Below, one piece after another: positions 3,687 to 49,604 of a DNA stretch of 64,000 nt. A program made the translations under genes and the position numbers. Source of the DNA: Diploptera punctata (taxonomy: Eukaryota; Arthropoda; Insecta; Blattodea; Blaberidae); the NCBI GenBank assembly GCA_030220185.1, contig JASPKZ010003434.1, positions 1,582,284 through 1,646,283 on the forward strand, written 5' to 3'. The notes beneath the pieces are model-generated. The model made no database searches. It was not told the origin of the DNA and saw only the letters and a list, made by a program, of their open reading frames with translations. Numbering within the stretch: position 1 is the first letter of the stretch; the number at the start of each line of letters is the position of its first letter.

Positions 3687-4045
3687 ATCTGCGGTGGACT
3701 AGTAGTTATGCTTTAAGGTAGATTTTTTTTATCATTCACTTCATATTGTTCTATATTATTGTTCTCATATTAAAATCTACCTTAATGAATATATCTCATA
3801 GTGAGAATTCCTAAAATAAGTAATTAGTAGTAGTTATGCTCCTTGCCTCTGGTCCCAAGGTTGTGGGTTCAAACCTGGCTGGAGTCAATTGATTTTATAG
3901 GATGGAGAAATCCAAGGAGCAAGTCCTCTGGGAGGGACTTTAAGCTGTGGGTCTCGAGTCTGAAGATTTTCATGCTCGTAAAAGAATGTTAAGCCTGAAT
4001 AAAGAGGCCTCTGAGAAAAATTTACCAACCTTCATCATTCTAGTT
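3687..4045 (+). mobile_element. SINE-A (tRNA-like head), interrupted
   Basis: The head GCGGTGGACTAGTAGTTATG and the downstream B-box-like GGGTTCAAACC match the copy at 17928-18150 along the whole length (GGATGGARAAATCCAAGGAG, GTCTGAAGATTTTCA, and so on). It is split by a 115-bp foldback at 3713-3827 that duplicated TAGTAGTTATGCT. Confidence 0.8.
3713..3827. mobile_element. Mini PLE foldback with one-sided tail
   Basis: A 115-bp insertion between perfect 13-bp duplications TAGTAGTTATGCT (3700-3712 and 3828-3840). The arms TTAAGGTAGATTTT and AAAATCTACCTTAA are inverted. A tail of about 42 nt follows only the right arm and contains CTCATAGTGAGAATTCCTA, the variant of the PLE tail motif seen throughout the window. 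It has no coding capacity. Confidence 0.85.
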
Positions 4046-4059
4046 ATACCATAGTTAAT

Positions 4060-4252
4060 AATAATTAATTTGATTCTGTCATCTTACCTCATAAATTATT
4101 GTGTTCTTGAGATCATATTTTAATATGTCTTCATATTATCGTCAGCTTATTCAGACACTGACGATAGGTTGATAATATAAATACTTATTGAAATATATTC
4201 TCAAGAACATAATAATTTATGAGGTAAGATGATCGCACAAATTAATTATTAA
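4060..4252. mobile_element. PLE-derived foldback
   Basis: The arms ATCTTACCTCATAAATTATT (near 4081) and its inverse (near 4214) pair over about 65 bp each, including outer AATTAATT blocks. The loop side of each arm carries CTGACGA followed by a potential stem (TAATATG/CATATTA), a decayed hammerhead-like core. Confidence 0.75.
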
Positions 4253-4389
4253 AAAGAATCTTATAATTAGGACTCGGAAGTTGAGGACCTATAAAATGTC
4301 TATAAAGGCCTTTAAGAAGACCTAAAGATATTCTACAAAAGACCTAAAAACTGGAAAAAGGACGTAACAAATGTTGCAGTGGATAAAGA

Positions 4390-4472
4390 TAACCTCATAA
4401 GAATTAAATTAATCATGATTATTTCATACCTCATAATAATCATGATTAATTTAATTCTTATGAATTTGAACC
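4390..4472. repeat. Short palindrome of PLE-end type
   Basis: AAGAATTAAATTAATCATGA and its inverse flank TCATACCTCATA. The sequence matches the PLE end variant found at 1644, 9131 and 10916, and AACCTCATAATGTTA follows on the right. Confidence 0.65.
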
Positions 4473-4511
4473 TCATAATGTTAAAAATTCCCAATTTTAA
4501 TATATAAAGAT

Positions 4512-5170
4512 AACCTCGCTGCCTTCACCCTCTGCTAGAGGTAATTTTCACAAAGTGACAACTTCTTAGAAAATTTTAAGTCGAAATACAATAATTCATG
4601 CAGTCAGTAGACTGGTGGTTAAAAATAACAGGATATTTTGTGAGGGTTCAATATTTTCTCGAATTAAAGTGTTTGGAATGTGAAAAGTCTTTAGAAAGTA
4701 AAACTATTAGTGTTTTTAAAAGAAGTTGGAATTGAGACTAGACTCTGTGGATTATGAATTATACAAATGGTATAAATGTAGTTGAAAGAAAGTAAAGTTG
4801 CAAAAAAAAACCAATAAGCCAAAGAATTGTCAAAAAAAGGACAAGTACCACCCAACATTTTCTCACCTACAATGACCCAAAATGTATATATGTATAAGTT
4901 GGGTCTGGTCTTCTGACATAAAATGAAAAAAAAAAGTTTTTTTTCTCTATTTCCGAGCCCTACTTATAATGTTACTTCCCATTGTAATTTTAATTAAATA
5001 CCTTAGTTGCTACTAGATGTCTCTTTGGGTCGGTATGTTGACCGTATACCATTCATGACATATGTAGGGAAATAAGCGTAATTAAAGTAACTTGGTCTAG
5101 CAACTGCTAACAAAAGAGAGGGTAAGGCCTAACATTGGGCTATTACGCCATTATAGATGTCTTCTATTGG
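4512..5170. other. No recognised feature
   Basis: AT-rich sequence with a homopolymer stretch near 4925. No coding, tRNA-like or repeat match was seen. Confidence 0.4.
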
Positions 5171-5171
5171 A

Positions 5172-5600
5172 ATGATATATTTTTTTTTAATATATGTAGG
5201 AAATAACACTATGAGGTTTCTTTTAATTATTAATGAGTTGGTTATTTTGACTTACCTCATATTTCTTGATTTTTATGCAGAGCTGGTTTCATCGCTTTTG
5301 TGTGACATTGTCAATGCATTCCAACTGTTGTTTTGCAGTTATCCTTCCTGTAAGTTGATTTCTGCTCCCTCTGCTGGCTGACTGAGGAACTAGCTAATCA
5401 AATTTTTTTCTTTTTCTCTGGGAATTTCAAAATTCATGGTTTTCATCCTATTCTTGCAGATGTAAATTTTCTCCCAAATTGTCAGTTCCTTAGATTTTTC
5501 TAAGTGTTTTAGTAATTTGGCCTTGGTTTCAATTCTGACTTTTCTCTTATCACTTTCATTACAACTTCTTTACTTTGTTAATTTTTAATCTGTATTCTTT
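5172..5600 (-). mobile_element. PLE 3'-end fragment with decayed GIY-YIG C-terminus
   Basis: It begins with the recurrent tail (ATGTAGGAAATAACACTATG) and the TTACCTCATA motif. On the minus strand a broken frame then encodes a C-terminus related to the ELTIWEKIYICKNEN block at 7968-8340. Several frame breaks make it nonfunctional. Confidence 0.75.
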
Positions 5601-6065
5601 TAAGGCATCATCCCATTTGATAACTTTTTTATTAATTTTTCGCTAATGTATTGACGTAGACTTTCATAGCTGGAGTTGCTGTGATGATCTTGAAGAAGAT
5701 TTTCGGGCTGTAGGCTGTGATAGTGAGGCTTTAGTTCCCCGATGTTTTGCCCAGAGACTGCGTCTGGCATCCTCAAGGGTTGTCTTGAGACTGGCAATTC
5801 TGTCCACTGTCTGTCCTATTTATACGGTCACCGTGATGTGTTTGTAAGTTATATCAGCCTTCTGATTGGTCAGTGGTAGGGACTTCCATTGCTCCAATGA
5901 TATTGCTGTTTGATAGTCTAGTCGACTGTACTTGTAGAGGTTTTTAGAACCGGTATCCATACTTTGTTGACTTTTAATGATTCTTCTTTTCTATTGAAAC
6001 TGTTTTTATGTTTGAATATTTTGATGGCTTCTCGTTGTAGACCCGTGTCTATTGTATAGAACATA
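5601..6065 (-). mobile_element. 3' end of a second PLE family
   Basis: On the minus strand the sequence first encodes a PLE-like C-terminus (peptide DTGLQREAIKIFKHK, then FNRKEESLKVNKVW). It then passes through the GC-richer end CTTGAGGATGCCAGACGCAG and ends ACAGCCCGAAAATCTTCTTC. That last segment matches the foldback at 22700-22922. The ORF is broken. Confidence 0.75.
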
Positions 6066-6862: not shown

Positions 6863-6920
6863 AAATAAATAAGTTTGATCTGTCTTCATCTTACCTCATA
6901 TTTCATTGTGTCTTTTAAGA

Positions 6921-6953
6921 CATGTTTTCAAAGCTTCTTTGCTTCATCTTCAG
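6921..6953 (-). ncRNA. Hammerhead-ribozyme-like core in a PLE arm
   Basis: On the minus strand: CTGAAGA, an imperfect stem (AAGC/GCTT), then GAAAACATGTC. The extra A in the GAAA element weakens the match. Confidence 0.4.
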
Positions 6954-7212
6954 TTGGTACAGACTGATGATCTTTAAGTTATCGGCCCTGGATCTCAACT
7001 CCTGCTCTCTCTTTTTGTGGTCCAAAGAACTTGGGAGAGAAACTTAATAAGCAAGTTTTTGGACCACAAAAAGAGAGAGCAGTAGTCGAGATCCAGGGCC
7101 TATAACTTAAAGATCATCAGTCTGTACCAACTAAAGATGAAGTAAAGATGCTTTGAAACATGTCTTACAAGAAATAACGAAATATGAGGTAAGATGAAGG
7201 AAGACCAAACTT

Positions 7213-7455
7213 AACTTAACCTTTTTTTTTTTATATAGGAATTATCACTGTGAGGTTCAATTCAATATTAAATTAAAAGATTCTTACCTCTCCTCACATT
7301 ATTCTGTTAAGTAGATCGCGATTTCAGTGGTTCTTCCGAGCGACATAACACCGGTCAACAACAGTGTACTGAAGATGGGCCTGCTATAGGCCTGAAATCG
7401 CGATCTACTTAACAGAATAATGTGAGGAGAGGTAAGAATCTTTTAATTTAATATT
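7213..7455. mobile_element. Nested PLE foldback with 13-bp target duplication
   Basis: It is flanked by GAAGACCAAACTT at 7200-7212 and 7456-7468. The left end has a tail of about 51 nt (poly-T, TATATAGGAATTATCACTGTG, AGGTTC) that the right end lacks. The arms then pair from AATATTAAATTAAAAGATTC inward. It lies inside the foldback 6863-7498. Confidence 0.88.
7369..7405 (+). ncRNA. Hammerhead-ribozyme-like core
   Basis: CTGAAGA at 7369-7375, a GC-rich stem (GGCCT-GCTAT-AGGCC), GAAA at 7394-7397, then the palindrome ATCGCGAT as a candidate stem III. The order fits a type I hammerhead of the kind known in PLEs. Confidence 0.6.
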
Positions 7456-7665
7456 GAAGACCAAACTTGTTTATTAAGTAGAACCTCATAATGTTACTAC
7501 TTCCTATTATATTTTCATAACATTCTAGCAATCAAGGTTTTAAAAGATTTTCATTTTCAGTACACACTGGTTATTTTGAATATAATAAAAAAAAAATATA
7601 TATTAATATTTTTAATACCTCAATTCACATTAGAGGATATGAGGCGAGGAATTAAAAACATAAAT

Positions 7666-7850: not shown

Positions 7851-7862
7851 ATGTTTTTATTA

Positions 7863-8477
7863 AGTTATGTAGATAGGAAATAACACTATGAGGTTCTTTA
7901 ATATTGTTTATTTTTTATCATTTCACTCACCTCATACTTCATAATTTATAGCAGACCCAGGGTTTCTTCACGTAATTCGTGACATTGTCAATGCTGCGTC
8001 ATGTTCACAACTGACGTCCAACGGCCTTCTATCCTGCAGACTGACCTCCGCGCCATCTGGTGGCCGACCGAAGAATTTCCAAATCAGGCCTCTTTCTTTA
8101 TAACCGGGTATTTCAAAATTCATAGTTGTATTTTCATTCTTGCATATGTAAATTTTTTCCCAAATTGTGAGTTCCTTCGGTTTTTCCAATTGTTTAAGTA
8201 ATTTTGTTTTGGTTTCTATTCTATGTTTTTCTGACCAGGCATGTGCAGCTATTGCAGATTTTTCGGTTTCTCCATTTTTAACATTTCTGAGGTGTTCTTT
8301 TAATCTTGTATTTAGATTCCTTTTTGTTTTTCCTATGTATATCTAGGATAGAAGGCCGTTGGACGTCAGTTGTGAACATGACGCAGCATTGACAATGTCA
8401 CGAATTACGTGAAGAAACCCTGGGTCTGCTATAAATTATGAAGTATGAGGTGAGTGAAATGATAAAAAATAAACAAT
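7863..8477 (-). mobile_element. PLE foldback carrying a GIY-YIG C-terminal piece
   Basis: It is flanked by ATGTTTTTATTA at 7851-7862 and 8478-8489. The left end has a 40-nt tail (starting AGTTATGTAGATAGGAAATA); after it both ends share TTGTTTATTTTTTAT and CACTCACCTCATACTTCATA in inverse orientation. The arms extend over about 170 bp. The spacer (about 8050-8340, minus strand) encodes the end of a GIY-YIG endonuclease: NLNTRLKEHLRN, HAWSEKHRIETK, ELTIWEKIYICKNEN. Confidence 0.88.
7968..8340 (-). pseudogene. PLE GIY-YIG endonuclease, C-terminal remnant
   Basis: The minus-strand peptide includes KRNLNTRLKEHLRNVKNGET, then SAIAAHAWSEKH, then LTIWEKIYI. This order is that of the Arg-helix, the H-x-W-x-x-x-H block and the terminal LTIWE block of PLE endonucleases. 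The catalytic GIY and YIG strands and the whole RT are absent. Confidence 0.8.
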
Positions 8478-8489
8478 ATGTTTTTATTA

Positions 8490-8713
8490 TTAATTTAACA
8501 TTTCTCAATGAAAGATAAATTAAATTTGAAGAGAAAAATTTTCGCCTAGACCGGGACTCGAACCCGGGACCCTTGGCTTTCCGGGCCAAGTGCTCTACCA
8601 ACTGAGCTACCGAGGCGAGTTCGCCTCGGTAGCTCAGTTGGTAGAGCACTTGGCCCGGAAAGCCAAGGGTCCCGGGTTCGAGTCCCGGTCTAGGCGAAAA
8701 TTTTTCTCTTCAA
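8490..8713. mobile_element. SINE-G foldback: two inverted tRNA-like units
   Basis: The minus-oriented unit (8543-8617) and the plus-oriented unit (8622-8696) are near-perfect mirror copies separated by 4 bp. The left side continues into a tail of about 35 nt (TCTCAATGAAAGATAAATT) that the right lacks. The same tail occurs in related SINEs at 13081 and 42190. Confidence 0.85.
8622..8696 (+). other. tRNA-like SINE head (A and B boxes)
   Basis: It folds as a cloverleaf: acceptor GCCTCGG/TCTAGGC with one mismatch, D arm GCTC-AGTTGGTA-GAGC, anticodon stem CTTGGC/GCCAAG, and T arm CCGGG-TTCGAGT-CCCGG. The seven-base anticodon loop CCGGAAA lacks U33, so it is tRNA-derived rather than a working tRNA. 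The mirror copy is at 8543-8617 on the minus strand. Confidence 0.75.
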
Positions 8714-8784
8714 ATTTATGTTTTTAATACCTCACCTCATATCCTCTAATGTGAATTGAGGTATTAAAAATATTAATTATTAAG

Positions 8785-9125: not shown

Positions 9126-9129
9126 GAGA

Positions 9130-12820: not shown

Positions 12821-12888
12821 TGAACTATAAAATAATTAAATAAAAATAAAACTTATAGAGATAAAAGGTCTCTCGTATAAAGGAACAC

Positions 12889-13058
12889 ATGAGAGCATAT
12901 AACAGAAATTTAGAATATTCAAAATATGCTAACTGCCTATTCCAATTTAATCATTGTTTCGATCCAAATTTTGAAATTTTACATGTTTGTGATAAGGGTA
13001 AGAAGTTGGACCTTTTGGAGGCTGTAGAAATAAATAAATTGAAAAGTAGTAATAAACT
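12889..13058 (+). pseudogene. PLE GIY-YIG endonuclease C-terminus, split by SINE dimer
   Basis: The peptide MRAYNRNLEYSKYANCLF...NHCFDPNFEILHV...LDLLEAVEINKLK matches the minus-strand PLE ORF at 40366-41139. It resumes after the SINE insertion at 13638 (LLHSQLDLNESPL), ending near 13694. The GIY and YIG strands and the RT are absent. Confidence 0.85.
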
Positions 13059-13637
13059 TTTTTTTTATTGATTTCGTACATCTCAATGATGGATAAATCA
13101 TATTTGAAGAGAAAAATTATACGCTCAGACCGGGACTTGAACCCGGGACCCTTGGTTCTCTAGACCAAGTGCTCTACCAACTGAGCTACCTGAGCAAGTA
13201 CCGATCTAAACGCAAATCCTTTTCTATATACATTGTAATTCCCATCCACCAAATGCTGTGAAGCCATGCTTCTATCTTGCAAATGGCGGCTCCTTTATTA
13301 AGAAGACATATTTGGGAATTATACATTACAGCCAGTACGGCTTTTTTCAAGTTTTTATTATTGATTTCGTACATCTCAATTATGGATAAATCATATTTGA
13401 AGAGAAAAATTATACGCTCAGACCGGGACTTGAACCCGGGACCCTTGGTTCTCTAGACCAAGTGCTCTACCAACTGAGCTACCTGAGCAAGTACCGATCT
13501 AAACGCAAATCCTTCTCTATATACATTGTAATTCCCATCCACCAAATGCTGTGAAGCCATGCTTCTATCTTGCAAATGGCGGCTCCTTTATTAAGAAGAC
13601 ATATTTGGGAATTATACATTACAGCCAGTACGGCTTT
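13059..13637 (-). mobile_element. SINE-G head-to-tail dimer
   Basis: Two nearly identical units of about 290 bp (13059-13346 and 13347-13637), both minus-oriented, sit between 12-bp duplications TAGTAATAAACT (13047-13058 and 13638-13649). Each unit has a 5' part (from AAAGCCGTACTGGCTG), an internal tRNA-like segment (GGTAGCTCAGTTGGTAGAGC, B box GGTTCAAGTCCCG) and the 3' tail TCTCTTCAAATATGATTTAT...AATAATAAAAA. They were inserted together, as shown by a single pair of duplications. Confidence 0.88.
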
Positions 13638-14044
13638 TAGTAATAAACTGTTACATTCTCAACTTGATTTGAATGAATCGCCTTTGCTAAATTAAAAAAT
13701 TTAAATAAATTATTGTTGTATTGTTATTAGATCAGTTGATATGTACTATAATAACACAATTCATAATTTGTTAACATGTCTGAAGAAGGTACAGTGTACC
13801 CAAATAGCTGTAACTGAATTATATCTTAATAAATATGAAAATCAAATAAAACTATAAGTTTTATTTATATTTAATTAATATGGATTTTCATCAAGTAAAC
13901 ACCAACTCAATTGATTATAAAATAATTAATAAATTACAATAGGAAGTAACCTTATGAGGTTTTTCTTAATAAATAAGGTGAATCCAGTCATCTTACCTCA
14001 TAACTTGTTGTGTTCTATTTGAACATGTTTTGATATTGAACTTT

Positions 14045-19349: not shown

Positions 19350-20000
19350 TTATTTAAAAATACAATAGGAAGTAACATTAAGAGGTTTATTTAATAATGA
19401 AGATATTTGGTCTGTATATTCTTACCTCTTTTGGTTGTTTTTGTTGAACATATGTTTCAAGGCTTCTGAGCCCCATCATCAACGATTATAGACTGATGTT
19501 CCTCAAGTTGTCGGCCCTGATTCTTGACTCCTGCTCCCTTTGCCTGTGGGTCCAATGAACTTGCTAATGAGGTTGCTTTCTCCGGGAATTTCAAAATTCA
19601 TAATTATTTCCTTATTCTTTTGTATGTAGCTTTTTTCCCATATTGTGAGTTCATTTTTGTTCTCAAACTATTTTAATAATTTTGTGTTTACATCTATTTT
19701 GTGTTTTTCTGACCAAATGTGAAGCAGCCACTGCATATTTTTCTACTCACCATATGGGAAAAAAGTCTACATACAGAAGAACAAGGAAAAAATTGTGAAT
19801 TCTGAAATTCCTGGGGAAAGGAACCTCATTAGCAAGTTCATTGGACCACAGGCAAGGGGAGCAGGAGTCAAGAATGAGGGCCGACACAACTTGAGGAAAA
19901 TCGGTCTGTAATCGCTGATGATGGGGCTCAGAAGCCTTGAAACATATGTTCAACAAAACAACCATAAGAGGTAAGAATATACAGACCAAATATCTTCATT
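19350..20000 (-). mobile_element. PLE foldback with GIY-YIG remnant
   Basis: Perfect 12-bp duplications AACATTCTTAAT at 19338-19349 and 20001-20012. The left tail of about 46 nt (ACAATAGGAAGTAACATTAA) is absent on the right. The arms start at AATGAAGATATTTGGTCTGT and inverse, and extend through CTTACCTC and the GGTCCAATGAACTTGCTAAT C-terminal block. The spacer holds an LTIWE-type remnant on the minus strand. Confidence 0.88.
19915..19950 (+). ncRNA. Hammerhead-ribozyme-like core
   Basis: CTGATGA (19915-19921), stem II GGGGCT-CAGA-AGCCTT (two G-U pairs), GAAA (19939-19942), palindrome ACATATGT. The left arm contains the mirrored copy. Confidence 0.66.
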
Positions 20001-22695: not shown

Positions 22696-22699
22696 GTAT

Positions 22700-22922
22700 G
22701 ATGATGATTTTCGGGCTGTAGGCCGTGGTCGTGAGGCTTGTAGTTCCCCGACGTTTTGCCAAAGACTGCGTCTGGCATCCTCAAGGGTTGTCTTGAGGAT
22801 GCCAGACGCAGTCTTTGGCGAAACGTTGGGGAACTACAAGCTTCATGACCACGACCTACAGCCCGAAAATCTTCATCAAGATCATCATAGCAACTCCGGC
22901 CGTGAAAGTCTACGTGAATACA
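22700..22922 (+). mobile_element. Foldback of a second PLE family, one-sided tail
   Basis: Perfect 12-bp duplications TTAATGACTGTA at 22688-22699 and 22923-22934. The arms GATTTTCGGGCTGTAGGC and inverse meet at CAAGGGTTGTCTTG. The right end alone has a tail of about 44 nt (CATCATAGCAACTCCGGCCG onward). Near the centre, TTGAGGATGCCAGACGCAGT...GGCGAAACG has hammerhead-like order with a non-canonical first core base. It is related to 5601-5800. Confidence 0.87.
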
Positions 22923-23376: not shown

Positions 23377-23839
23377 GGACTATTCAGTGCAACCATCCCG
23401 CCAGTGAATATTCAATTGGAGAACAAGTGACTTTTAGCGTCTTGTTGGCCACTGTGATAACACATGTTCCGGATAATGCTAACTGCCAACATGTTTTTTC
23501 ACATATAAGGGAATTCTATCCCAAGAGTCCACCTATATTAGTGGGCAAGTTGGGGTGAGAAAATGGGTGAGTTAGTACACCAGATTAGTTTAGCATTCAC
23601 TTGTTTGTTAGTGGATTTTAGTGTTGACTACATTGTCTGAGCTGTGACTAATACATAATTTAAATTGCAAATATACTGAATTTAGGTTACTTTGAGTTCA
23701 ACTTCTCACTTTATTTTAAAGCATTTTTCACATTTTTTTGGGAAAAAATTAACATTTAAATTTCTCTCAATTATTCACATACTGCAACAATAAATTGTTT
23801 TTTTTTTCATTTGAATTTATGTTGTTGGCATAGAAACCC
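23377..23839. mobile_element. 463-bp insertion with 8-bp target duplication
   Basis: TATTAAAT at 23369-23376 and 23840-23847 flanks a non-coding insert (from GGACTATTCAGTGCAACCAT to TTGGCATAGAAACCC). No inverted termini are visible. Its right third (TTAGGTTACTTTGAGTTCAA to TTATGTTGTTGGCATAG) is related to 56328-56480. An 8-bp duplication would fit hAT-type transposition, but the class is unproven. Confidence 0.6.
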
Positions 23840-24247
23840 TATTAAATTAATAAGATTTTACACCTCATCTCATATATTTTGTATATATTCAGGACAGGTT
23901 TCAAAGGGTGTTCTCTTCATTATCAACTAGCATCTGACTTGATTTTACCATTGGCAATCCTGCAGGCCAATTCTTTCTCCTTCTGTTGAACTGCCAAATC
24001 AAATTCTTTTCATGGGAAGTTCAAAATTCATGATTTTGTCCTTGCATTTCTGGATGTAGATCTACCAGATTGTGAGTTCTTTGGATTTACAGGTATTTGT
24101 TTAATATGTGTTGCTTTTTTTATTTAATATTTAAATATCCTAACTCATAATAATTAACATGTTGCTTTACTTCAATCCTGTGCCTTTCTGACCAAGTGTG
24201 AGGCATTTACTGCAGTTTTCTACTTCCCCACTTTTTACATTCTTAAG

Positions 24248-24469
24248 CCAGTAGCAACATTCAGACTGCTTGAATAAACACCTACACAGAATTGGCATAA
24301 CAGATTCACCTAAATGCCCTTTTTGCAATTTAAATGAAGATATGGAAAGAAACCATCTCCTCCGTTGTCCAGCTTTTGTAGAAGAGACTAGCCTTTCTGC
24401 TAAATATTGGAGTGCAAGAGAGCGAATGATTTCATTATCAAGTGCTCGACATTAGATACCAACCAACCA
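24248..24469 (+). mobile_element. 5'-truncated RNase H LINE end
   Basis: Perfect 11-bp duplications ACATTCTTAAG at 24237-24247 and 24470-24480. It encodes NKHLHRIGITDSPKCPFCNL then HLLRCPAFVEE, nearly identical to the 2217-2774 copy, and ends GATACCAACCAACC. Confidence 0.9.
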
Positions 24470-24868
24470 ACATTCTTAAGCTGTTCTTTCATTCTGATGG
24501 TCTATTTTTTTTTCCTATGTTGATTTTTTCACAACCTGCACATATTATGTCTTGATTAATTTCTTCATTTTTGTTAGTTTTCCAAGAGTTTATTAAGGCT
24601 AAAATCATTTTTCGGTGCCAATTTGAATTTGTAAAAATTTTTGAAATTTATTGTATATTGAAGGACATGTAAATTTTTTATATATTATATTTTGTTCTTT
24701 TTCAGTTTGATTGATACTTCCTTTAATTAATTTTTGTTTTCTGAGGCTATTTATTTTCTTGTAAATAACATTTTATTCAAAGCCATTATCTATTGCACAA
24801 GTGACTCTTTGAAACTGGTCCTGGATATATACAAAATATACAAAGTGAGGTGTAAAATCTGATTCATT

Positions 24869-26837: not shown

Positions 26838-27082
26838 GTTGAATGCAGGCTTTCACGGCTGGTAATCATAATGTTGAGTGATTCCGGGCTTTGTGGCCGT
26901 GGTCCATTACTGGTGTTCCTACCAGACGTTTCTCCCTCAGCTGCGGAGGGCATTTTCAATGGCTAGGAAACAACACCTAGAAGTACTCACCATTGACGAT
27001 GCCCTCCGCAGTTGAGGGAGAAACGTCTGGTAGGAACACCAGTAATGGACCACGGCCACAAAGCCCAGAATCACTCAACATT
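26838..27082 (+). mobile_element. Foldback of a third PLE family
   Basis: Perfect 11-bp duplications ATTCATTTGAT at 26827-26837 and 27083-27093. The left end has a 32-nt tail (GGCTTTCACGGCTGGTAATC). The arms AATGTTGAGTGATTCCGGGC and inverse enclose a loop of about 45 bp. Near the right arm, GACGATGCCCTCCGC...GAGGGAGAAACGTC resembles a hammerhead core with stem CCCTC/GAGGG. Confidence 0.87.
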
Positions 27083-29339: not shown

Positions 29340-30880
29340 TGCAGTAGTTAATATAACTAAAGAGAAAAATTCCTGCCTGAACCCAAGATATCCAGTTTTA
29401 TGCACTGACATGTTAGCTAACTGTGCTATTTAACATTTTCCAATACTGTTTTTTAACACAGTTCCAACAATGGATCATATTATAATATTGTGAAAAGAAA
29501 AATTAACGTGTGAACCAGGTATCAAACTGAGGACTTCTAGTTCTCTAGACTAGTGTGCAGCCCACTACACCATTCCTCATATACAAATCTATAATTCTCA
29601 TTTCGTCCGCTGTAAGATAGATGACACTGCCATCGCCAATGGCCAGCTTCATTTAGAAGTATCTATATTTGAGAATTTTACACTTTTATAAGTAGTAAAC
29701 AATGTTATTTAACATTTTCCAATACTGTTTTTTAACACAGTTCCAACAACGGATCATATTATAATATTATAATGATATTATGAAAAGAAAAATGAATGTG
29801 TGAACCAGGAATCGAACCGTGGACCTCTAGTTCTCCAGACTAGTGTGCAGCCCACTACACCATTCCACACCTGGCACAAACACTAACAATTCTTTCCACA
29901 TATACAAATCTATAATTCTCGTTTTGTCCGCTGTCAGGTAGATGACACTGCCATCGCCAACGGCTGGCTTTGTTTAGAAGTATCTATATTTGAGAATTTT
30001 ACACCACTACTTATTATAGATTTGTATATGTGGAAAGAATTGTTAGTGTTTGTGCCAGGTGTGGAATGGTGTAGTGGACTGCACACTAGTCTGGAGAACT
30101 AGAGGTTCCGGTTCGATTCCTGGTTCACACATTAATTTTTCTTTTCACAATATCATTATAATATTATAATATGATCCATTGTTGGAACTGTGTTAAAAAA
30201 CAGTATTGAAAATGTTAAATAACATCGTTTACTACTTGGTGGTGTAAAATTCTCAAATATAGATACTTCTAAACGAAGCCGGCCGTTGGCGATGGCAGTG
30301 TCATCTACCTAACAGCGGACGAAAAGAGAATTATAGATTTGTATATGTGGAAAGAATTGTTAGTGTTTGTGCCAGGTGTGGAATGGTGTAGTGGGTTGCA
30401 CACTAGTCTGGAGAACTAGAGGTCCACGGTTTGATTCCTGGTTCACACATTAATTTTTCTTTTCACAATATCATTATAATATTATAACTGTGCTATTCAG
30501 ACAATCCAGGAGTAGGCACAAATCTTTCTCTATTTGAAATTCTCACATAACTTTAGTAGTGAAATACTATTCACATTATAACATGGTTGCTTTTACTAAA
30601 AATACATTATGATGTAATTTATTCCATCCACAGCAGCTAATTATGAACATAATATTGAAATTAATGTGCTCAGGCAAGCCATTCACATTCAGTAGTTAAT
30701 ACAACTACAGAAAAATATCTTCTTAGAAGAAGCAACCATGTTCTGCTCCTGGATTGACTGAATAGCACAATTGGTTAGTGTACCAGCACATAAAGCTGGA
30801 GATCTTGGGTTCAAATCCCAGTTCAATCAGGAATTTTTCTCTTTAGTTTTATACCGCTTGTGTACAACAAAATTTATAAA
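29340..30880. mobile_element. SINE-F inverted pair, host of the SINE-E array
   Basis: The right unit (plus, about 30755-30860) has a tRNA-like segment: GAATAGCACAATTGGTTAGT, then GGGTTCAAATCCCAGTTCAA, then AATTTTTCTCTTTAG. The left unit (minus) is the inverse at 29360-29430, continuing at 30498. Only one side of each is well preserved. The SINE-E array sits inside the left unit. Confidence 0.65.
29431..30485. mobile_element. SINE-E inverted tetramer inserted as one unit
   Basis: Perfect 12-bp duplications AACTGTGCTATT at 29419-29430 and 30486-30497 enclose 1055 bp. It holds four tRNA-like SINE units of about 250-300 bp, two minus (29.43-30.00 kb) then two plus (30.01-30.485 kb). Each has GGAATGGTGTAGTGG (A-box side), GGTTCGATTCCTGG or a variant (B box), and a 3' part AATTTTTCTTTTCACAATAT. 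The left end extends about 50 nt further than the right (TTTTCCAATACTGTTTTTTA), so the foldback is asymmetric. Confidence 0.88.
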
Positions 30881-35858: not shown

Positions 35859-35967
35859 GATGATCCTTAGTATTAATTAATTACAATAGGAAGTAACATT
35901 ATGAGGTTCTTCTTAATAAATAAGGTAAATCTGGAGTCATCCTATCTCATAACTTGTGTTCTATTTA

Positions 35968-36002
35968 AACTTGTTTCGATATGCCATGCATACCATCATC
36001 AG
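35968..36002 (-). ncRNA. Hammerhead-ribozyme-like core
   Basis: On the minus strand: CTGATGA, stem II GGTATGC-ATG-GCATATC, GAAAC, then AAGT. It lies 3' of the degenerate PLE ORF in the same sense. Confidence 0.66.
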
Positions 36003-36372
36003 CTTTTACAGACTGTCGAATTTTATGTTGTCGGCCCTGGATGTAGCTCCCACTCCAACTTTTGGCTAACCAAAGAACTTTTAAATCAAATCTTCTTCCC
36101 CCGAGAATTTCAAATTCATAATCTTGTTTTTGTTCTTCTGGATGTATATCTTCTCCCAAACGGTGAGTTCTCTTGTATTTTACAACTGTATTAATAATTT
36201 TGTGTTTACTCAATTTTATGTTTTCTGACCAAACATGAGCAACCACTGCAGATTTTTGGTCGGAAAAGCATTAAATGCAAACACAAATTTATTAAAACAG
36301 TTGGAAAATACAAGAGAACTCAACATTTGGGAGAATATCTATATTCAGAAGAACAAAAACAGGATTATGAAT

Positions 36373-36625
36373 CAAGTTTTTTTTTTTTGAGACTGGAAAC
36401 ATCTTACCTCAAATTAATGTTGATTTATTCTTGAACATGTTTCGATATAATCTTGTATATCATCTTCAGCTTGCCCAGACTCAAGTAATTCAAGTCTGGG
36501 CAAGCTGAAGATCATATCGAAACATATTTGAGAATAAATCAACATTAATTTTAGATAAGATGTTTCTAGTCTAAAAGAAAAACTTGATTAAATGAACCTC
36601 AAAATATTACTTCCTAAAATAAACT
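36373..36625. mobile_element. Nested PLE foldback with 15-bp target duplication
   Basis: Perfect duplications AACAGGATTATGAAT at 36358-36372 and 36626-36640 interrupt the right arm of the outer PLE. The arms CAAGTTTTTTTTTTTTGAG... and inverse end in CTTGATT; a 39-nt tail (AACCTCAAAATATTACTTCC) is on the right only. No ORF. Confidence 0.92.
36435..36469 (-). ncRNA. Hammerhead-ribozyme-like core
   Basis: On the minus strand: CTGAAGA, perfect stem II GATATA-CAAGAT-TATATC, GAAAC, palindrome ACATGT. The mirror copy at 36505 has lost half of stem II. Confidence 0.68.
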
Positions 36626-36743
36626 AACAGGATTATGAATTTTGAAATTCCCAGGGAAAAAGATTTGATTTACAAGTTCTTTGATCAGCCAAAACATGGA
36701 GTGGGAGCTGGCATCCAGAGCCAACAACATAAAATTCAACAGT

Positions 36744-36778
36744 CTGATGATGGTATGAATGGTATATCGAAACATGTT
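36744..36778 (+). ncRNA. Hammerhead-ribozyme-like core
   Basis: CTGATGA (36744-36750), stem II GGTATGA-ATG-GTATATC (imperfect), GAAA (36769-36772), palindrome ACATGT. It belongs to the right arm of 35871-36831. Confidence 0.6.
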
Positions 36779-37044
36779 CAAACAGAACACAACAAGTTAT
36801 GAGGTAGGATGACTCCGGATTCACCTTATTTATGCTCCTTAGAAGTTCAATTGATTGAGCACCTGAATGTCAAGTTGGTCATCTATCATTCAAATCCCAG
36901 CTCAGATACAAAATTATATTTTAAGATATGTTTGACATTTCTTTAGACTAAAAAAGAAATGCATTGATTTCAGAGATATTTCATATTACAGATGGTAATA
37001 GCTACCATAAAATATTCTCGTTTACTTATACAAAACTGAGTATA

Positions 37045-40278: not shown

Positions 40279-40311
40279 GACAGCTGTTTCGGTACACTGT
40301 ACCTTCTTCAG
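40279..40311 (-). ncRNA. Hammerhead-ribozyme-like core downstream of PLE ORF
   Basis: On the minus strand: CTGAAGA, perfect stem II GGTAC-AGT-GTACC, GAAA, then the palindrome ACAGCTGT. It begins about 55 bases after the PLE stop codon. The copy at 13779 keeps CTGAAGA and stem II but has CAAA. Confidence 0.7.
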
Positions 40312-40365
40312 ACATGTTAACAAATTATGAATTGTGTTCCAACTGATCTAAGCAACAATATTTAT

Positions 40366-41139
40366 TTAAATTTTTAAATTTAACAAAGGGGATTCATTCA
40401 AATCAAGTTGAGAATTTAACAGTTTGTTACTATTTTTCAATTTATTTATTTCTACAGCCTCCAAAAGATCTAACTTCTTACCCTTGTCACAAACATGTAA
40501 AATTTCAAAATTTGGATCGAAACAATGATTAAATTGGAATAGGTGGTTAGCATATTTTGATGAATGTTCCAAATTTCTGTTATATGCTCTCATGTGTTCC
40601 TTTATCCGAGAGATAAAAGGTCTACCATTTTGTCCTGTATAGACATTGTCACATGTGCCACACTTCAATTTATATACACCTGATAATTTTTCTTTCTTTA
40701 TTTTGTTTTTTATTATATTTTGTAAAGTTTTATTAGTTTTAAATGCCACATTAATGTTCAACTTTTTAAAGTGTTTAGATATTTTATCTGAAAGTAGGCC
40801 TATGTATGACATTACGACATATTTCTTTATGTTTTCTTTGGGTAAAGGATAAACTTTGTTAATTGCTTCTTTGTAATGAACTTTCTTAATTAAATATTCT
40901 ATAATTTTAGGGTCATAGTTATTATTAATAGCTAATTGTTTAATAATATTCAATTCATTATTATATTCCAAGGGTGAAAGAGGGATATTTAAAAGCCTAT
41001 GAATGTAACTATTAAAGGCTGCCATCTTATGAGTATATGGGTGAAGAGAAGAACTATGGATAGTGGTATTAGTATGAGATGGTTTGTGAAAGATACCAAA
41101 CTCAAACTTATTATCAATGTGTTTTATTGATAAATCCAA
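40366..41139 (-). pseudogene. PLE thumb and GIY-YIG endonuclease
   Basis: A 257-residue open part of the PLE polyprotein. Residues 1-130 form the region after the RT active site (FLDLSIKHIDNKFEFGIFHK with the frame upstream, FHKPSHTNTT, YTHKMAAFNSYIHRLL). The GIY-YIG nuclease follows: SGVYKLKCGTCDNVYTGQNG (V-Y replacing the I-Y of the GIY strand and YTG for YIG, with the PLE-typical Cys pair), RPFISRIKEHMRAYN (catalytic Arg region), SSKYANHLFQFNH and LLEAVEINK (Glu). This nuclease nicks target DNA for integration. The frame is open to its natural stop, but the RT part lies in other frames. Confidence 0.9.
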
Positions 41140-41164
41140 GAAATTTATACTTCTGTGAATGTTA

Positions 41165-41760
41165 TTAATAAAATTTAAAAAAGGAATTCAATTGTCTTTT
41201 AGTTCCTATGAAGCCTGCTATGACATCATCTACATAACGATACAAAAATAGAACATTTCTAGCTAATACATTCTTATGTATGGTTTGTTCTAAGTCATCC
41301 ATAAAAATCTCTGCCAAAAGAGGGCTCAATGGATCACCCATAATCAAACCATCTTTAGCTATGTACAATTTGTTATTAAATTCAAAATAATTTTGATGTA
41401 AGCATGTTTTAAGAGTGTGTAATATTTCTTCAACTACAAAACTATTCACTTTATTAGTAACATTCTATTAATAATCTCTATTACATCAAAAGTAGGTATA
41501 CTGGGAAACAGATTCTTTACATCAAAAGAAACTAAAATTAAGTTATTAGGCAAATCAATGTTCTTTATATTGTCAATTAATTCAATAGAGTTTTTTATAC
41601 TGTAAATTGGATTGAACTTAATATTAGATGAAATTATATTTATTAGCTTTTTAGACATTTTGTATGATGGAGAACTTATGAAAGAAACTACTGGTCTAAT
41701 AGGATAATTTTCCTTATGTAATTTAACTAGAGAGTACAGTTTGGGTGGTTGGGGATTCAT
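41165..41760 (-). pseudogene. PLE reverse transcriptase, frameshifted
   Basis: Two overlapping frames carry the RT core. 41446-41760: LVKLHKENYPIRPVVSFISS and LVSFDVKNLFPSIP (motif A, catalytic Asp). 41165-41449: KDGLIMGDPLSPLLAEIFMD (motif B) and LYRYVDDVIAGF (motif C, YVDD). A frameshift near 41447 and another near 41160 separate the RT from the C-terminal ORF. The catalytic Asp residues are preserved, so the decay looks recent. Confidence 0.9.
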
Positions 41761-42106
41761 TTGTATTATAGGGTATTCAAAAAAGTTATTACAAAATTAT
41801 ACTATTTTTATAAATATTTATAATTTCTTTTTGATATTTCTCTGTTGGGTCTTTATCAATAATTTGAAAATTATCTGAATTTAGAAAATCTACAGTTTTA
41901 GAGATATAATCATCCTTATTTAAAGCTATTAAAGTTTGTCCTTTATCTGCTCGTGTAATAACAATATCATCATTTATAGTTTTCTATACAATCAATATTA
42001 TCAATAACACATTACTTTGTAATAAGTCATTGGATACTATGGGTTCCTTAGGCTTACAGTATATCAAAACACTCAAATAGCATCCCTTAACAACATGTAA
42101 ACATTT

Positions 42107-42247
42107 TTTTTAAGAGAAAAATTATACGCTCAGACCGGGACTTGAACCCAAGGGTCCCGGGTTCAAGTTCCGGTCTGAGCGTATAATTTTTCTCTTCAAA
42201 TATGATTTATCCATCATTGAGATGTATGAAATTAATAATAAAAATAT
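42107..42247 (+). mobile_element. SINE-G 3'-half foldback inside the PLE
   Basis: 13-bp duplications CATGTAAACATTT/CATGTAAAAATTT (one mismatch) at 42094-42106 and 42248-42260. The arms AAGAGAAAAATTATACGCTC... and inverse carry half of the tRNA-like unit (B box GGTTCAAGTTCCGG). A tail of about 50 nt (CAAATATGATTTATCCATCA) is on the right only. Confidence 0.85.
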
Positions 42248-42685: not shown

Positions 42686-42838
42686 TGTTTATTTTTTATT
42701 ATTTCACTCACCTCATACTTCATAACTTCTTGCAAGAAACTTCTTGCAAGAAGTTATGAAGTATGAGGTTGAGTGAAATAATAAAAAATAAACAATACTA
42801 AAAAACCTCATAGTGTTATTTCCTATATACATAACTTA
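42686..42838. mobile_element. 153-bp mini PLE foldback
   Basis: Perfect 15-bp duplications ATATTATTAATGTAT at 42671-42685 and 42839-42853. The arms TGTTTATTTTTTATTATTTC, CTCACCTCATACTTCATAAC and inverse leave almost no loop (CTTGCAAGAAACTTCTTGC). A tail of about 42 nt (AACCTCATAGTGTTATTTCC, ATATACATAACTTA) is on the right only. The hammerhead and ORF are entirely absent. Confidence 0.92.
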
Positions 42839-42873
42839 ATATTATTAATGTATCATACACAATTTGTTAAATA

Positions 42874-44183
42874 CGAGGGTCATACTGAAAGTCATGAGCA
42901 ACATTTTTTAAACAATCATAATATTTATTTTAGACAAACCAAGTACACCATGATAATCTACAGACCTTTGTGCTACTTTTCAACATAGTCTCCATTTCTT
43001 TGCACACATTTTGTCCAGCGTTCTACAAGCTTGAAAATTCCCTTATGATAGAAGTCCATTCCAGCTGCTCGAAGACACTGATGCACTGCTTTCCGAATAT
43101 CCTCCAGCGTCTCGTAGTGTTGGCCTCTCATCTGCTCCTTCACAGAATCGAAAAGATGGTAGTCGGAGGGTGCCAAATCGGGATTATAGGGAGGATGTGG
43201 AAGAGTTTCCCACCCAAATGTCCTGGTCTTCTCCACAGTGGCATGAGCAGTGTGAGGACGCGCGTTATCGTGTTGCAGAATGATTTTCCTTCCAGGGCGT
43301 TTGTCGTGCAATGCACGACGGAGCTTCACAAGTGTCTGGATACAGCGGGCAGCATTTATGGTTTGTCCAGGTTCAAGAAATTCAACCAGAATGCAACCTT
43401 GTGCATCCCAGAAGACGCTGCCCATAACTTTCCCAACAGATTGCATTGTCTTCGCTTTTTTCTTTGATGGCGAATTCAAGTGGTGCCATTCCATACTCTG
43501 GCGTTTTGTTTCAGGCTCGTAGCGATGAAACCAGCTTTCGTCACCTGTCACAATACTCGTCAAAAAATCATCACCTTCATTTTGAAATCTCTGAAGAAGG
43601 TTATGGGTGATGGTTCTTCTCTGAAGTTTGTGGTCTTCACTCAATAAACGTGGAACCCAACGGGCACTAACTTTTCGGTAACGAGCTGTGAATCATTTCT
43701 TGCACTGCACTGTGTCCTACTGCAAGTTTTGTAGCGATTTCATTCACTGTGATATGCCTGTCGTCTCTAATGAGCGCATCAACACTTTCCTTGTTGCAAT
43801 CCGTGGAGGCAGAGCGTGGACGACCGCTACGAGGCTCATCTTTGATACTCATGTTCCCATCTTTAAAATGTTTCACCCATCTCCTAACACTGCTGGCACC
43901 CATGCAGGCATCTCCGTAAGCACATTGAAGTCTTTGGTGAATATCAACAGCAGATTGTTCCTCTTTAACAAGGAATTCAATGACAGTGCGCTGTAGAAAC
44001 GAAACATTGATGTCTGCCATTTTGGAAACACTGCGTGTGGTCACATGATAGAAGCTATGATGCCACAAAATGGCAATGTTGTGGTATAAAGTATGTAGAT
44101 TACAATCCTGCAGTTGTTTTTGTTACATTGTTGAAATTTGAATTTTAACAATGGGTTGCTCACGACTTTCAGTATGACCCTCG
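42874..44183 (-). mobile_element. Mariner transposon (DD34D), 1.31 kb
   Basis: TA at 42872-42873 and 44184-44185. Terminal inverted repeats of about 28 bp (CGAGGGTCATACTGAAAGTC) differ by one base. Length and structure are those of a complete mariner. The transposase gene has one frameshift. Confidence 0.93.
42973..44068 (-). pseudogene. Mariner transposase with a single frameshift
   Basis: The N-terminal part (43667-44068) has the paired HTH domain: FLVKEEQSAVDIHQRLQCAY, then SSVRRWVKHFKDG and GRPRSASTD linker, then VNEIATKLAVGHSAVQEMI. After a frameshift near 43680 the frame continues with YRKVSARWVPRLL and the catalytic part: IVTGDESWFHRYEPETKRQS (first Asp), ILQHDNARPHTA (second Asp) and NPDLAPSDYHLFDS (third Asp, 34 residues from the second). 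It ends at 42973. Apart from the frameshift near 43680 it appears full-length. The first Met (MWHHSF) may be upstream of the usual start; MADINVSF fits better. Confidence 0.92.
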
Positions 44184-44189
44184 TATCTT

Positions 44190-45218: not shown

Positions 45219-45221
45219 ATA

Positions 45222-46475: not shown

Positions 46476-46477
46476 TA

Positions 46478-46532: not shown

Positions 46533-46539
46533 GAGTATA

Positions 46540-46980
46540 TAAAACTGTTATTGTTCCACTTATATGAATGCAAAACATGGACTCTTACCTTATGGGAGGA
46601 GAAAATATTACAGGTATTTGAGAATAACATCCTTAGTGGACCAAAGACAGGTCAACAATGGAGAAGCCTACACAATAGTGAGCTACTTGATCTTTACTGG
46701 AAACTAGATATAATAAAAACAATTAAGTCTCATAGGCTGCAATAGGTAGGACATGTGGCACAAATGGGAATGAAAGAGGGGAATAGAAACTCCTTGTAGA
46801 GAAATTAGAGGGAAAACGTCTAGTAGGTAGGCCAAGAATGAGGTGGGGGGGATATTATTAACCATGGTTTGAGGGCAGTAAATTATACTAGAGATAACTG
46901 GAAAACATTGGCTCAGGATAGAGATATAACTCGATCCACATAACCATAAACCTCCCGGTTCGATAGAGCCAGTTAATTAG
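46540..46980 (+). mobile_element. LINE 3'-end fragment (RTE-like)
   Basis: A degenerate coding end (AAIGRTCGTNG, KLEGKRLVGRPRMRWG) and the 3' end CATAAACCTCCCGGTTCGAT AGAGCCAGTTAATTAG. Same family as 20860-21210. Confidence 0.72.
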
Positions 46981-47308
46981 TTATAGTCCACATATTTTCA
47001 TTAGATCGAAGTCACTGCTTAGCTGCCACATTGAATCCAGTGATAAGTTGTGTGGGTTTAAATTATCTCACACTGCATCATGCAACCCTCCATTGAGTTT
47101 TAAGACATGAGGGGAAAGGGGATTGATACTCCAATATGACATGAGACATATGGAACATTTTTAAGATAAAACATCTCTACCGAGTCCACTTAAAACTGTA
47201 TGTAAATAGAAATAAATTAAATTTTTAGTTAATTTTTTACACATGTCAATTACAAGCTGTACAGTAACTGAGCTAAGTTCCAGTTGCACTATAAACAAAC
47301 TTGCATAA

Positions 47309-47990
47309 AGTGATAATGTTTGCAGATGATCTTGTTTTACTAGCAACATCTGAAGATGATTTACAATGGTCAGTACATAATTTGAATTTGATAGCCCAGA
47401 AATATTCAATGGAAATATCTACCAATAAAACTAAAATAATGGCCTTTTGTAGAAAATCCCTAATACCAAGCAAAATTTGTTTAAATAACAAAATTTTAGA
47501 GAGAGTTAATGAGTTTACTTATTTAGGATATAAACTCTCTTTGTTGAAAATTTGGATTTATCAGAGAAAATTGTGAAATTAATGGGAATCATTAATAGAG
47601 TTTTAAAACCTTCATTAGTGCAAAAATCAACTCGTACTTGTCTTTATCAAATAATGGCTCGACCAGTCCTATGTTATGGGAGTGAAGCGTGGACTATAAG
47701 GACAAGAGATGAAAGCAGACTAACAGCTTGTGAGATGAAATTTATGCGCCAAACAGGGATCGAAAGAAAAATGTAGAGATCCTTCAAGAACTTAATGTGT
47801 AACCAGTACTGGACTACATCTCCAGATATCAGCTAAACTGGAAGGAACATATCTCAAGAATGGCTAGATCCAGGATCCCCAAGGCAATAATGAACTACTG
47901 TCCAAATGGGAAATGGTCACTTGGTCGACCTATGAAAAGATGGCACGAAAACCGCTTTCTCAGGCCGTAACAGTTCTTCTAGCATGATGA
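47309..47990 (+). mobile_element. LINE fragment with RT active site
   Basis: Two open stretches encode MFADDLVLLATSEDDLQWSV (FADD box), YSMEISTNKTKIMAFC, YLGYKLS, then KPSLVQKSTRTCLYQIMARP, VLCYGSEAWTIRTRDESRLT. The C-terminus follows in a third frame (GRPMKRWHENRFLRP). It is absent from paralogue copy A, so it inserted after the copies separated. Confidence 0.85.
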
Positions 47991-48166
47991 TGAAGTAATA
48001 CTCCGCTGATTGTCTATTGGGAGAACCGTGGTACTACTATTACCTGCCATATGACTGAATTGTCTGTGTCAATAATACAAACATTTTTCTTAGAATACAT
48101 CATATTTTACGGGAAATAAGGCTTATTACAAGATAATATGGTACCAATAAATAATTAGTAACTTCC

Positions 48167-48628
48167 CTTCTTCTCTTCTTCCTTCCAAGTATTAGGCCAA
48201 GGCCTGTTACGATCCTATAGAAAATTATCCCTCCAGCGTTTCATAGGACGGCCCAGTGATCTTCGTCCTCTTGGTATATAATTATAAACAGCTTTGGGGA
48301 TCCGATTTTAACTCATTCTTTCAAGATGGTGTTTCCAATTTAGTTGGTACTGTTTAATATATTCCAAGGCGTAGTCTTGAATTCTTTTAAGATATCGGTG
48401 TTCCTTTTCCGATCCCATCTGGTGTAACCCGCTGTTCTGCGCATGAATCTCATTTCACAAGCCGTTATTCTGCTTTCATGTTGTCTTTTTAGTGTCCATG
48501 CTTCACTACCATAGGTCAACACTGGTCTAGCCAAAGTGTTATATAAACGTAATCTGGTGTTTTTTTGTACAAGGGATGGTTTTATAACTTGATTAATAAT
48601 TCCCAAACTTTTATTATAACTAGTAATT
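48167..48628 (-). mobile_element. 5'-truncated LINE with 15-bp target duplication
   Basis: Perfect duplications TAATTAGTAACTTCC at 48152-48166 and 48629-48643. The 3' end on the plus strand is CTTCTTCTCTTCTTCC. The peptide KNTRLRLYNTLARPVLTYGS, EAWTLKRQHESRITACEMRF, RRTAGYTRWDRKRN is nearly identical to the 15527 copy. Confidence 0.92.
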
Positions 48629-48765
48629 TAATTAGTAACTTCCATTTCTTATTTATTTATGACAAAAAATTATATATGGACCTACCTAATCACATGTTTA
48701 TACTTTTCCCATGATTTTGATAGATATCCTTTATTTGCAATTTCATTTGGTCTATGAGCAGAATA

Positions 48766-49021
48766 TATCGTCGCTTAAGAAACAATTCTGCGTAACTAAC
48801 AAAATGGAACATTTTACACAAGAAAAAAAAACTGTTTACTTTTCCCCTTAGTACTTATGCATTGAAACCATTGTATCTATAAGTTTAGCAAGGTCATGGT
48901 ACAAAATTGCATCCCTATCTATGTTAGAACTGAGCGCACTTCTTCCGTGATGCTAACAGTATAAAAATGTCAATTTCATCAGAAGTGTCAGTTACGCGGT
49001 ATTGTTTCTTAAGCTACGATA
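48766..49021. mobile_element. MITE of about 255 bp
   Basis: The termini TCGTCGCTTAAGAAACAATT and (inverse) TCGTAGCTTAAGAAACAATA continue through GCGTAAC, about 29 bp. TA/ATA is duplicated at the borders. The empty site is visible in paralogue copy A near 18537. No ORF. Confidence 0.8.
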
Positions 49022-49261
49022 TGCTCAATGCTGACTTACCTGTAAATTCTACTGTTATTTTTACCACATCCTCAATGGCTAATATGGGGTATTTTTCACT
49101 AAACTGTTTGAAAACATTCAAAATAATTTTTTTTCTCTGCTTTTAAGGTTTTCCTTTTTGATGCTTCAAAAATTATATAGGAGAAGCAGCCATTTGAAAT
49201 AATTGAAATTGTAAAGATTTTTGTATTGTGGATGAGTAAGAATTAAACAACGAAATCCTTA

Positions 49262-49604
49262 AGTTATGTAGATAGGAAATAACACTATGAGGATTTTTAA
49301 TATTGTTTATTTTTTATTTCACTCACCTCATACTTCATAACTCCTCGCAAACCCAGGCTTTCGTCACATCGTTTGTGACATTCTCAATGCTGTGTCATGT
49401 TCACAACTGACGTCCAACGGCCTTCTATCCTGCAGACTGACCTCCGTGCAATCTGATGGCTGACCGACAAACTTCAATTAGGATAGAAGGCCGTTGGATG
49501 TCAGTTGTGAACGTGACACAGCATTGAGAATGTCACAAATGATGTGACAAAACCCTGGGTTTGCGAGGAGTTATGAAGTATGCGGTGAGTGAAATAAAAA
49601 ATAA
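49262..49604. mobile_element. PLE foldback with 15-bp target duplication
   Basis: Duplications ACAACGAAATCCTTA/ACAACAAAATCCTTA (one mismatch) at 49247-49261 and 49605-49619. The left tail AGTTATGTAGATAGGAAATA and the arms match the element at 7863-8477 (GAAGGCCGTTGGAYGTCAGT), but the GIY-YIG spacer is almost wholly deleted. Absent from paralogue copy A. Confidence 0.9.

Follow-up and report, generated by a model that had tools for sequence, protein, structure and literature searches.

One-tailed foldback insertions in the Diploptera punctata genome and their probable formation by bilateral target-primed reverse transcription of Penelope-like elements

We analysed a 64-kb stretch of the Diploptera punctata genome (64,000 nucleotides, hereafter the window; contig JASPKZ010003434.1, C3382:1582284-1646283 in the searched 3.12-Gb assembly of 10,165 contigs), which holds 17 foldback insertions that appear to derive from Penelope-like elements (PLEs). 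All 17 have inverted arms, a target site duplication (TSD) of 10-17 bp and a single tail of 32-51 nt (Table 1). Eleven had been listed in an earlier note made from the sequence alone; each was found again with its TSD, inverted arms and one tail, with edges within 2 bp of those given there, and the TSDs are exact except for one mismatch each in e12840, e35871 and e49262. The other six (e4397, e6865, e8487, e23816, e29431 and e42112) were added here. Three of the 17 carry tRNA-derived units, which the earlier note does not mention.

The layout was scored in a scan of 49 foldbacks found by BLAST, for which a TSD score of at least 12 was required and the position of the TSD relative to the arm ends was recorded. 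The one-tailed layout was found in 15 of the 49 foldbacks, nine with the tail on the left and six on the right; in these the TSD abuts one arm end (-16 to +5) and is separated from the other by 28-49 nt. The two-tailed layout was found in none of the 49. Four had no tail; three of these were judged to be palindrome or AT artefacts and one is borderline (54121-54710, 9 bp). Swapping flanks between foldbacks, which sets the chance level, gave 0.12-0.49 expected per layout class. Element e3713 was missed by the scan since its arms are too short, and the TSD of e6865 was recovered only after its nested insert had been removed.

Nested insertions provide empty sites within the window itself. Removal of e7213 yields an unbroken arm of e6865, which aligns with the other arm and shows its own TSD; removal of e36373 likewise restores the arm of e35871. 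A PLE reading frame is broken by the tandem of tRNA-derived units at 13062-13652, whose right TSD and flank are matched at 94% by a 33-bp segment at 40400-40432. By eye, the target of e3713 is tRNA/SINE-like (SINE, short interspersed element).

Table 1. Foldback insertions and associated features, with positions in the window
Feature	Position	Strand	Tail	TSD	Description
e3713	3713..3827	+	right, 42 nt	13 bp	115-bp foldback; untailed arm ~14 nt
e4397	4397..4503	+	right	14 bp	added; 107-bp foldback
e6865	6865..7519	+	right	ACATTCTACCAA/ACATTCTAGCAA	added; hairpin PLE insertion split by e7213
e7213	7213..7455	-	left	13 bp	candidate hammerhead core at 7369
e7863	7863..8477	-	left		135-nt perfect arms; GIY-YIG C-terminus in spacer; 598 genome candidates
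e8487	8487..8716	-	left	10 bp	added; inverted tRNA-derived dimer; arms 99% identical
e12840	12840..13913	+	right	16 bp (1 mismatch)	PLE C-terminal open reading frame (ORF) fragment; 26-nt arms
Tandem tRNA-derived units	13062..13652	-		15 bp (1 mismatch)	287 bp each; nested in e12840
e19350	19350..20000	-	left	12 bp	candidate hammerhead core at 19915
e22699	22699..22922	+	right	12 bp	hairpin; stem CACGGCC/GGCCGTG
e23816	23816..24862	-	left	10 bp	added; weaker case
e26838	26838..27082	-	left	11 bp	2,791 genome candidates
e29431	29431..30484	-	left	13 bp	added; inverted dimer of tandem tRNA-derived units
e35871	35871..36831	-	left	11 bp (1 mismatch)	two candidate hammerhead cores; split by e36373
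e36373	36373..36625	+	right	15 bp	nested in e35871
PLE coding remnant	40311..41464	-			reverse transcriptase piece, C-terminal part and candidate hammerhead core
e42112	42111..42247	+	right	17 bp (2 mismatches; left copy 42094-42110)	added; hairpin of tRNA 3' half
e42686	42686..42838	+	right	15 bp	compact hairpin; centre near inferred hammerhead cut
e49262	49262..49605	-	left	14 bp (1 mismatch)

Between its arms, e7863 codes for the end of a GIY-YIG domain (PF01541, E=0.0011, 19.6 bits against a curated cut-off of 22.6), and positions 41165-41464 encode a piece of reverse transcriptase (RT; PF00078, E=5.7e-10). The frame at 40366-41187 has 16 homologues, with PF26215 in 12, PF00078 in five and PF01541 in three. 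Nine exact-core hammerhead motifs (CTGANGA, a stem II of at least 4 bp, and GAAA) are present, compared with 0.15 expected in Markov sequences, with no Rfam hammerhead match up to E 2. Foldback arms hold eight of these candidate cores, and the ninth adjoins the PLE frame. Stem II varies in sequence among families while pairing is kept, and by eye the stretch past GAAA is palindromic in most. PLE hammerheads have been described as minimal and as possibly cleaving as dimers. Tandem units were seen in three genome copies of the e7863 family (L029, L031 and L047), where a second tail and arm follow ~2,665 bp further on. An inverted partial long terminal repeat (pLTR) with a one-sided tail of ~30-50 nt and a TSD is a PLE trait, and this combination occurs in the window as well as in the genome copies. 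These observations support the identification of the window foldbacks as PLE insertions.

The e7863 family was also searched for in the genome. The best 40 of 598 candidates were scored and comprise the window copy, one copy at 94% and 38 that match query positions 1-482 at 100% (rounded), so that the family must be very young. Among the 39 copies fetched besides the window copy, 31 could be delimited by an exact TSD of 11-16 bp, one end carrying the tail and the opposite end an inverted arm that lacks it. We refer to the start of the untailed arm as site A, which the far-end search demanded, and to the start of the tail as site B. TSD lengths (n=30; L021, which has a 12-bp TSD and is counted among the 31, was left out here and from the target-match counts) were 12 bp in 14 copies, 13 bp in eight, 14 bp in three, 15 bp in two, 11 bp in two and 16 bp in one, so that 22 of 30 fall at 12-13 bp. 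No copy with two tails was present among the 31, and none was seen among the eight undelimited copies, for four of which (L029, L047, L050 and L056) the far end lies outside the fetched sequence. L029 had been a candidate for two tails; this was ruled out because its inner tail is a tandem-unit boundary.

Each delimited copy parses as two antisense cDNAs that meet head to head, with a small overlap or insert at the join; one starts at the tail end and the other ~40 nt upstream. We measured the tail-side length (D1) and the untailed-side length (D2) against a family reference in 29 copies, L031 and L038 being left out. The two lengths differ by at least 5% in 19 of the 29, with D1 longer in 12 and D2 longer in seven (for example 525/2247 for D1/D2 in L057 and 662/1391 in L039). 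In six copies D2 is the longer by more than 450 nt, and in a seventh by 150. A self-copying cDNA cannot exceed its template, and therefore two primers are needed, at least in these copies. The correlation of D1 with D2, which had a rho of 0.79 on the first 20 copies, was 0.27 (P 0.16) on all 29 and -0.05 without ties. L044, with a D1 of ~2550 and a D2 of ~88, adjoins a tRNA-derived hairpin, and similar copies of target sequence lie around both. We also observed that ends of the untailed arm recur at ~87-91 nt and at 135 nt (L021, L028, L044, e7863 and e49262), which are perhaps RT stops at structure.

The two starts fall in narrow zones. Tail starts at site B span 9 nt, and untailed starts at site A span 7 nt (positions 1-7, counted as genomic ends). 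At both, the target matches the RNA past the start, by a mean of 2.43 bases at site B and 2.87 at site A (n=30), compared with 1.02 and 1.07 for swapped targets. Under a null that allows for chance over-extension of the TSD the means were 1.25 and 1.48, and none of 5000 permutations reached the observed values. Such matches at both starts are what the annealing of two target 3' ends to RNA would predict. Among the 17 elements of the window, the corresponding matches measure 0-7 nt. As judged from these genomic ends, two internal RT start zones appear to be used in vivo, which fits the start sites of an Anolis PLE in vitro.

The arm sequence immediately upstream of the tail is, in most families, complementary to the beginning of the tail, as ATGAGG/CCTCAT, or as GTGAGG/CCTCAC in e7213, AAGAGG/CCTCTT in e19350 and TTGAGG/CCTCAA in e36373; the corresponding stem is ATGAAAATC/GATTTTCAT in e12840 and CACGGCC/GGCCGTG in e22699. 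True pairings were stronger than swapped ones whether the untailed copy of the arm (mean -10.8 vs -9.3 kcal/mol, P 0.005) or the tailed copy (-10.1 vs -8.6 kcal/mol, P 0.008) was used. The 3' strand of the best duplex starts 1 to 16 nt past the untailed end, which places this end within the loop or beside it. The RNA of the Anolis PLE folds the stem CAUGGCC/GGCCAUG, and its reported start at ORF position 111-118 is in the loop of the next hairpin.

Searches with the two short hairpins gave different pictures. For e42686, the best 40 of 877 candidates were scored and 31 loci were fetched, the window copy and eight candidates without a second arm nearby being left out. Of the fetched loci 25 were delimited, with a TSD and one tail; these represent 24 independent events, since L062 and L068 are the same event, and L077 was excluded as mis-delimited. 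Because the arms match through the whole hairpin, we used only lengths, TSDs and centres for this group, and not D1 and D2. Ten loci, at 136-152 bp, are compact hairpins and may be either recurrent products or copies of a unit. The other 15 measure 193-365 bp, with 14 different lengths and a TSD of their own in each case, consistent with truncated insertions that arose independently from an autonomous family; these lengths are not an unbiased sample, because the longer loci were fetched for a second arm nearby. Six loci of the search, five of them independent (L062/L068, L063, L065, L066 and L069), share the centre CTTCTTGCAAGAAG, which sits at the inferred hammerhead cut, a site seen uncut in L072-L074. 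Hammerhead-cut RNAs might have served as templates for the compact hairpins. We offer this as a suggestion, because the query is itself a compact hairpin, TTGCAA may favour joining, and the hairpin may be a propagating unit.

For e26838, the matches of the best 40 of 2,791 candidates cover almost all of the hairpin, in a ranking that favours full matches. Among the 21 copies examined (20 fetched and the window copy) a TSD was found in 17 and one tail in 20, both features being present in 16 of the 20 fetched copies, and six printed centres are alike. This family looks like a fixed, dispersed unit resembling miniature inverted-repeat transposable elements (MITEs). Arm identity was 0.904 within copies and 0.858, 0.913 and 0.882 for the T-T, U-U and T-U comparisons, with no clear fixed differences, and the hairpin may either propagate as a unit or form recurrently.

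These results bear on the further claims of the earlier note. A one-sided architecture common to unrelated families is borne out by the window elements and by the genome copies, and the proposed PLE origin by the RT and GIY-YIG coding sequence, the hammerhead motifs in arms and the tandem units. A TSD with one tail was found in 31 of 39 copies of e7863, 25 of 31 of e42686 and 16 of 20 of e26838; tails at both ends occur in none of these copies. Support is mixed for the view of the short hairpins as a large class that behaves like MITEs: it fits e26838, with its look of a fixed unit, whereas 15 of the 25 e42686 loci look like truncated insertions.

Eight tRNA matches in the window exceed the gathering score, and ARAGORN also reports eight. 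In e8487, e29431 and e42112 the tRNA-like units form hairpins or inverted dimers with a one-sided tail and a TSD. The best 40 of 408 candidates for e8487 were scored and 20 further loci fetched; three (L099, L100 and L102) were delimited with the one-tailed inverted layout and 14 were undelimited, while L103, L104 and L110 were left out because their automatic TSDs were judged to be tandem-unit repeats. A two-tailed reading of short tRNA matches in this search was set aside, as L091-L098 and L105 look by eye like undelimited tandem units. The shared layout suggests that tRNA-derived repeats may be mobilised by PLE machinery; no partner PLE for these units was found. Targeting of PLEs to tRNA elements, hinted at by e7863/e8487 and L044, was dropped because tRNA-derived units matched in 9 of 39 loci. 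In L107, by eye, sense PLE sequence that ends near the inferred hammerhead cut runs straight into the 5' end of a tRNA-derived unit, a junction that may be a template jump.

Other elements also occupy the window. An RT fragment (PF00078) of a retroelement lies at 15723-16289. A Transposase_1 element with terminal inverted repeats of ~44 bp (42871-44186) begins 18 bp past the right TSD of e42686, and a DUF4817 reading frame lies within a 118-bp inverted repeat pair at 151-1197.

We think it probable that the insertions were made by bilateral target-primed reverse transcription of PLEs. The PLE endonuclease would leave two target 3' ends with a stagger of ~12-13 nt. Priming by one of them at site B, the downstream RNA zone, would yield a cDNA with the tail at its start; priming by the other at site A, the upstream zone within or beside the loop of the arm-tail stem, would yield a cDNA that lacks the tail. 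Each cDNA would extend a variable distance toward the 5' end of the RNA, the 3' ends of the two would be joined head to head, and fill-in would make the TSD. The geometry, the TSDs, the single tail of each delimited insertion, the fact that either cDNA can be the longer and the target-RNA matches are read from the sequence; the order of enzymatic steps, the use of one or two RNA molecules and the joining pathway are parts of the mechanism that we infer. In vitro, an Anolis PLE cuts and extends both target strands, and its RT starts at two internal positions that delimit the tail (PMC11167929). A fuller version, in our estimate, falls somewhat short of an even chance: a paired machine that primes once at each of sites A and B, probably on two RNAs in a dimeric particle, with coupled synthesis and head-to-head joining, using hammerhead-cleaved templates for some insertions and moving tRNA-derived, SINE-like RNAs in trans.

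Several observations weigh against bilateral priming, or against parts of it. D1 is within 5% of D2 in 10 of 29 copies, compared with 1.5 expected by re-pairing (0 of 20,000 permutations); this excess is as compatible with snap-back or a shared template end as with synchrony. Arms of near-equal length, as in this third of the measured copies, suggest that synthesis is coupled, that the template end is shared or that a subset is self-primed. Overlaps of at least 2 nt occur in 14 of 29 joins vs 31% in simulated blunt joins (P 0.07, no clear excess), and inserted bases in nine of 29, two of the inserts being 74 and 107 nt; microhomology joining of the two cDNAs is possible. The stem at arm and tail is no better than swaps in 5 of 17 elements for the untailed copy and in 6 of 17 for the tailed copy, and the candidate hammerheads have no Rfam support up to E 2. 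For the Anolis system no difference in start site between strands is reported (PMC11167929), and this does not predict strict pairing of A with B. In the e7863 family an inverted arm was not seen in L036 and L058, and L045 continues into different sequence. L121, of the e26838 family, has a tail at both ends (24 of 28 matched), with no TSD found. Finally, every genome copy was found with a tail-bearing query, so that tail-less insertions would escape, and a site-A arm was demanded at the far end when the e7863 copies were delimited.

Self-priming, in which one cDNA or antisense RNA folds back and copies itself from a junction palindrome, has been proposed for rotifer PLEs (PMC3846280). The near-equal hairpins just described speak for it, as does the self-complementary centre TTGCAA in the six e42686-search loci (five independent). 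As the only route it is ruled out by the copies in which D2 exceeds D1, with D1 the longer in others, since a self-copied side cannot outgrow its template; moreover, target-RNA matches continue past site A at the untailed end, and by eye the centre of e4397 is part of the untailed arm and that of e7213 runs on from it. We consider self-priming an unlikely explanation of the insertions.

Less likely again, and in our judgement quite improbable, is twin priming of the LINE-1 type (LINE, long interspersed element), in which two target ends prime on a single RNA, with the second start at an internal position further upstream, and a simple 5' inversion results. As that reaction is usually understood, it has a like geometry of two target-linked cDNAs and TSDs, and L045, one of the eight undelimited copies, could be a case with scattered starts, given the demand for a site-A arm. 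LINE-1 twin priming gives non-overlapping segments, however, whereas the two cDNAs here have their starts ~40 nt from each other, close to one region of the RNA, and each carries a copy of the same sequence. MITE-type or foldback DNA transposons with terminal inverted repeats would account for short, ORF-less, TSD-flanked hairpins and for the unit-like look of the e26838 family. The ends are asymmetric, however, and no symmetric terminal inverted repeats were found in the one-tailed window insertions or among the delimited e7863 and e42686 copies; TSDs vary in sequence and length, copy length in the e7863 family reflects truncation of the RNA, and PLE coding sequence and hammerhead motifs occur in arms or spacers. 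We regard this origin as extremely improbable.

Bilateral priming would explain inverted pLTRs, the tail and the variable hairpins by one reaction. For PLEs, which form a third class of retroelements in eukaryotes, the in vitro study (PMC11167929) left open how a start at two RNA sites becomes a finished insertion; the copies described here are readouts of single events and show where each priming site and the join lie and how long each cDNA is. A one-sided tail with an inverted pLTR was already known (PMC3846280), as were two internal starts and extension of both strands in vitro (PMC11167929). The tRNA-derived repeats of this genome may in addition be PLE passengers. In a search of the open-access literature, as far as its text was accessible, we found no link of PLEs to twin priming, though some papers mention both terms, and no link to tRNA-derived passengers.

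Like tRNA-derived SINEs, the tRNA-like unit is present in many copies; unlike them, the few delimited copies here are inverted dimers with a one-sided PLE-type tail, and tandem units occur. SINEs moved by LINEs are not known to show these features. Metazoan retrozymes, which are also small and non-autonomous retroelements, have type I hammerheads (PMC7229834), comparable to the candidate cores here; they consist of direct tandem repeats, whereas the delimited copies here are inverted, one-tailed and often truncated PLE products. The Penelope elements of Adineta vaga share the inverted pLTR, an optional tail of 31 bp, TSDs of 8-10 bp and tandems; for them self-priming on antisense RNA is favoured (PMC3846280), whereas the copies with D2 longer than D1 require a second primer. 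A further likeness is to PAc of Anolis, of the Poseidon/Penelope group, which has GIY-YIG and RT, tandem units with a pLTR, a hammerhead to which the candidate cores here would correspond, two internal RT start sites bounding the tail, and cleavage and extension of both target strands (PMC11167929). That study stresses the absence of homology with the cut DNA, whereas the starts here match the target by 2-3 nt on average; the copies described here were made in vivo, each site was used once, at opposite ends, and the lengths of the two cDNAs differ freely.

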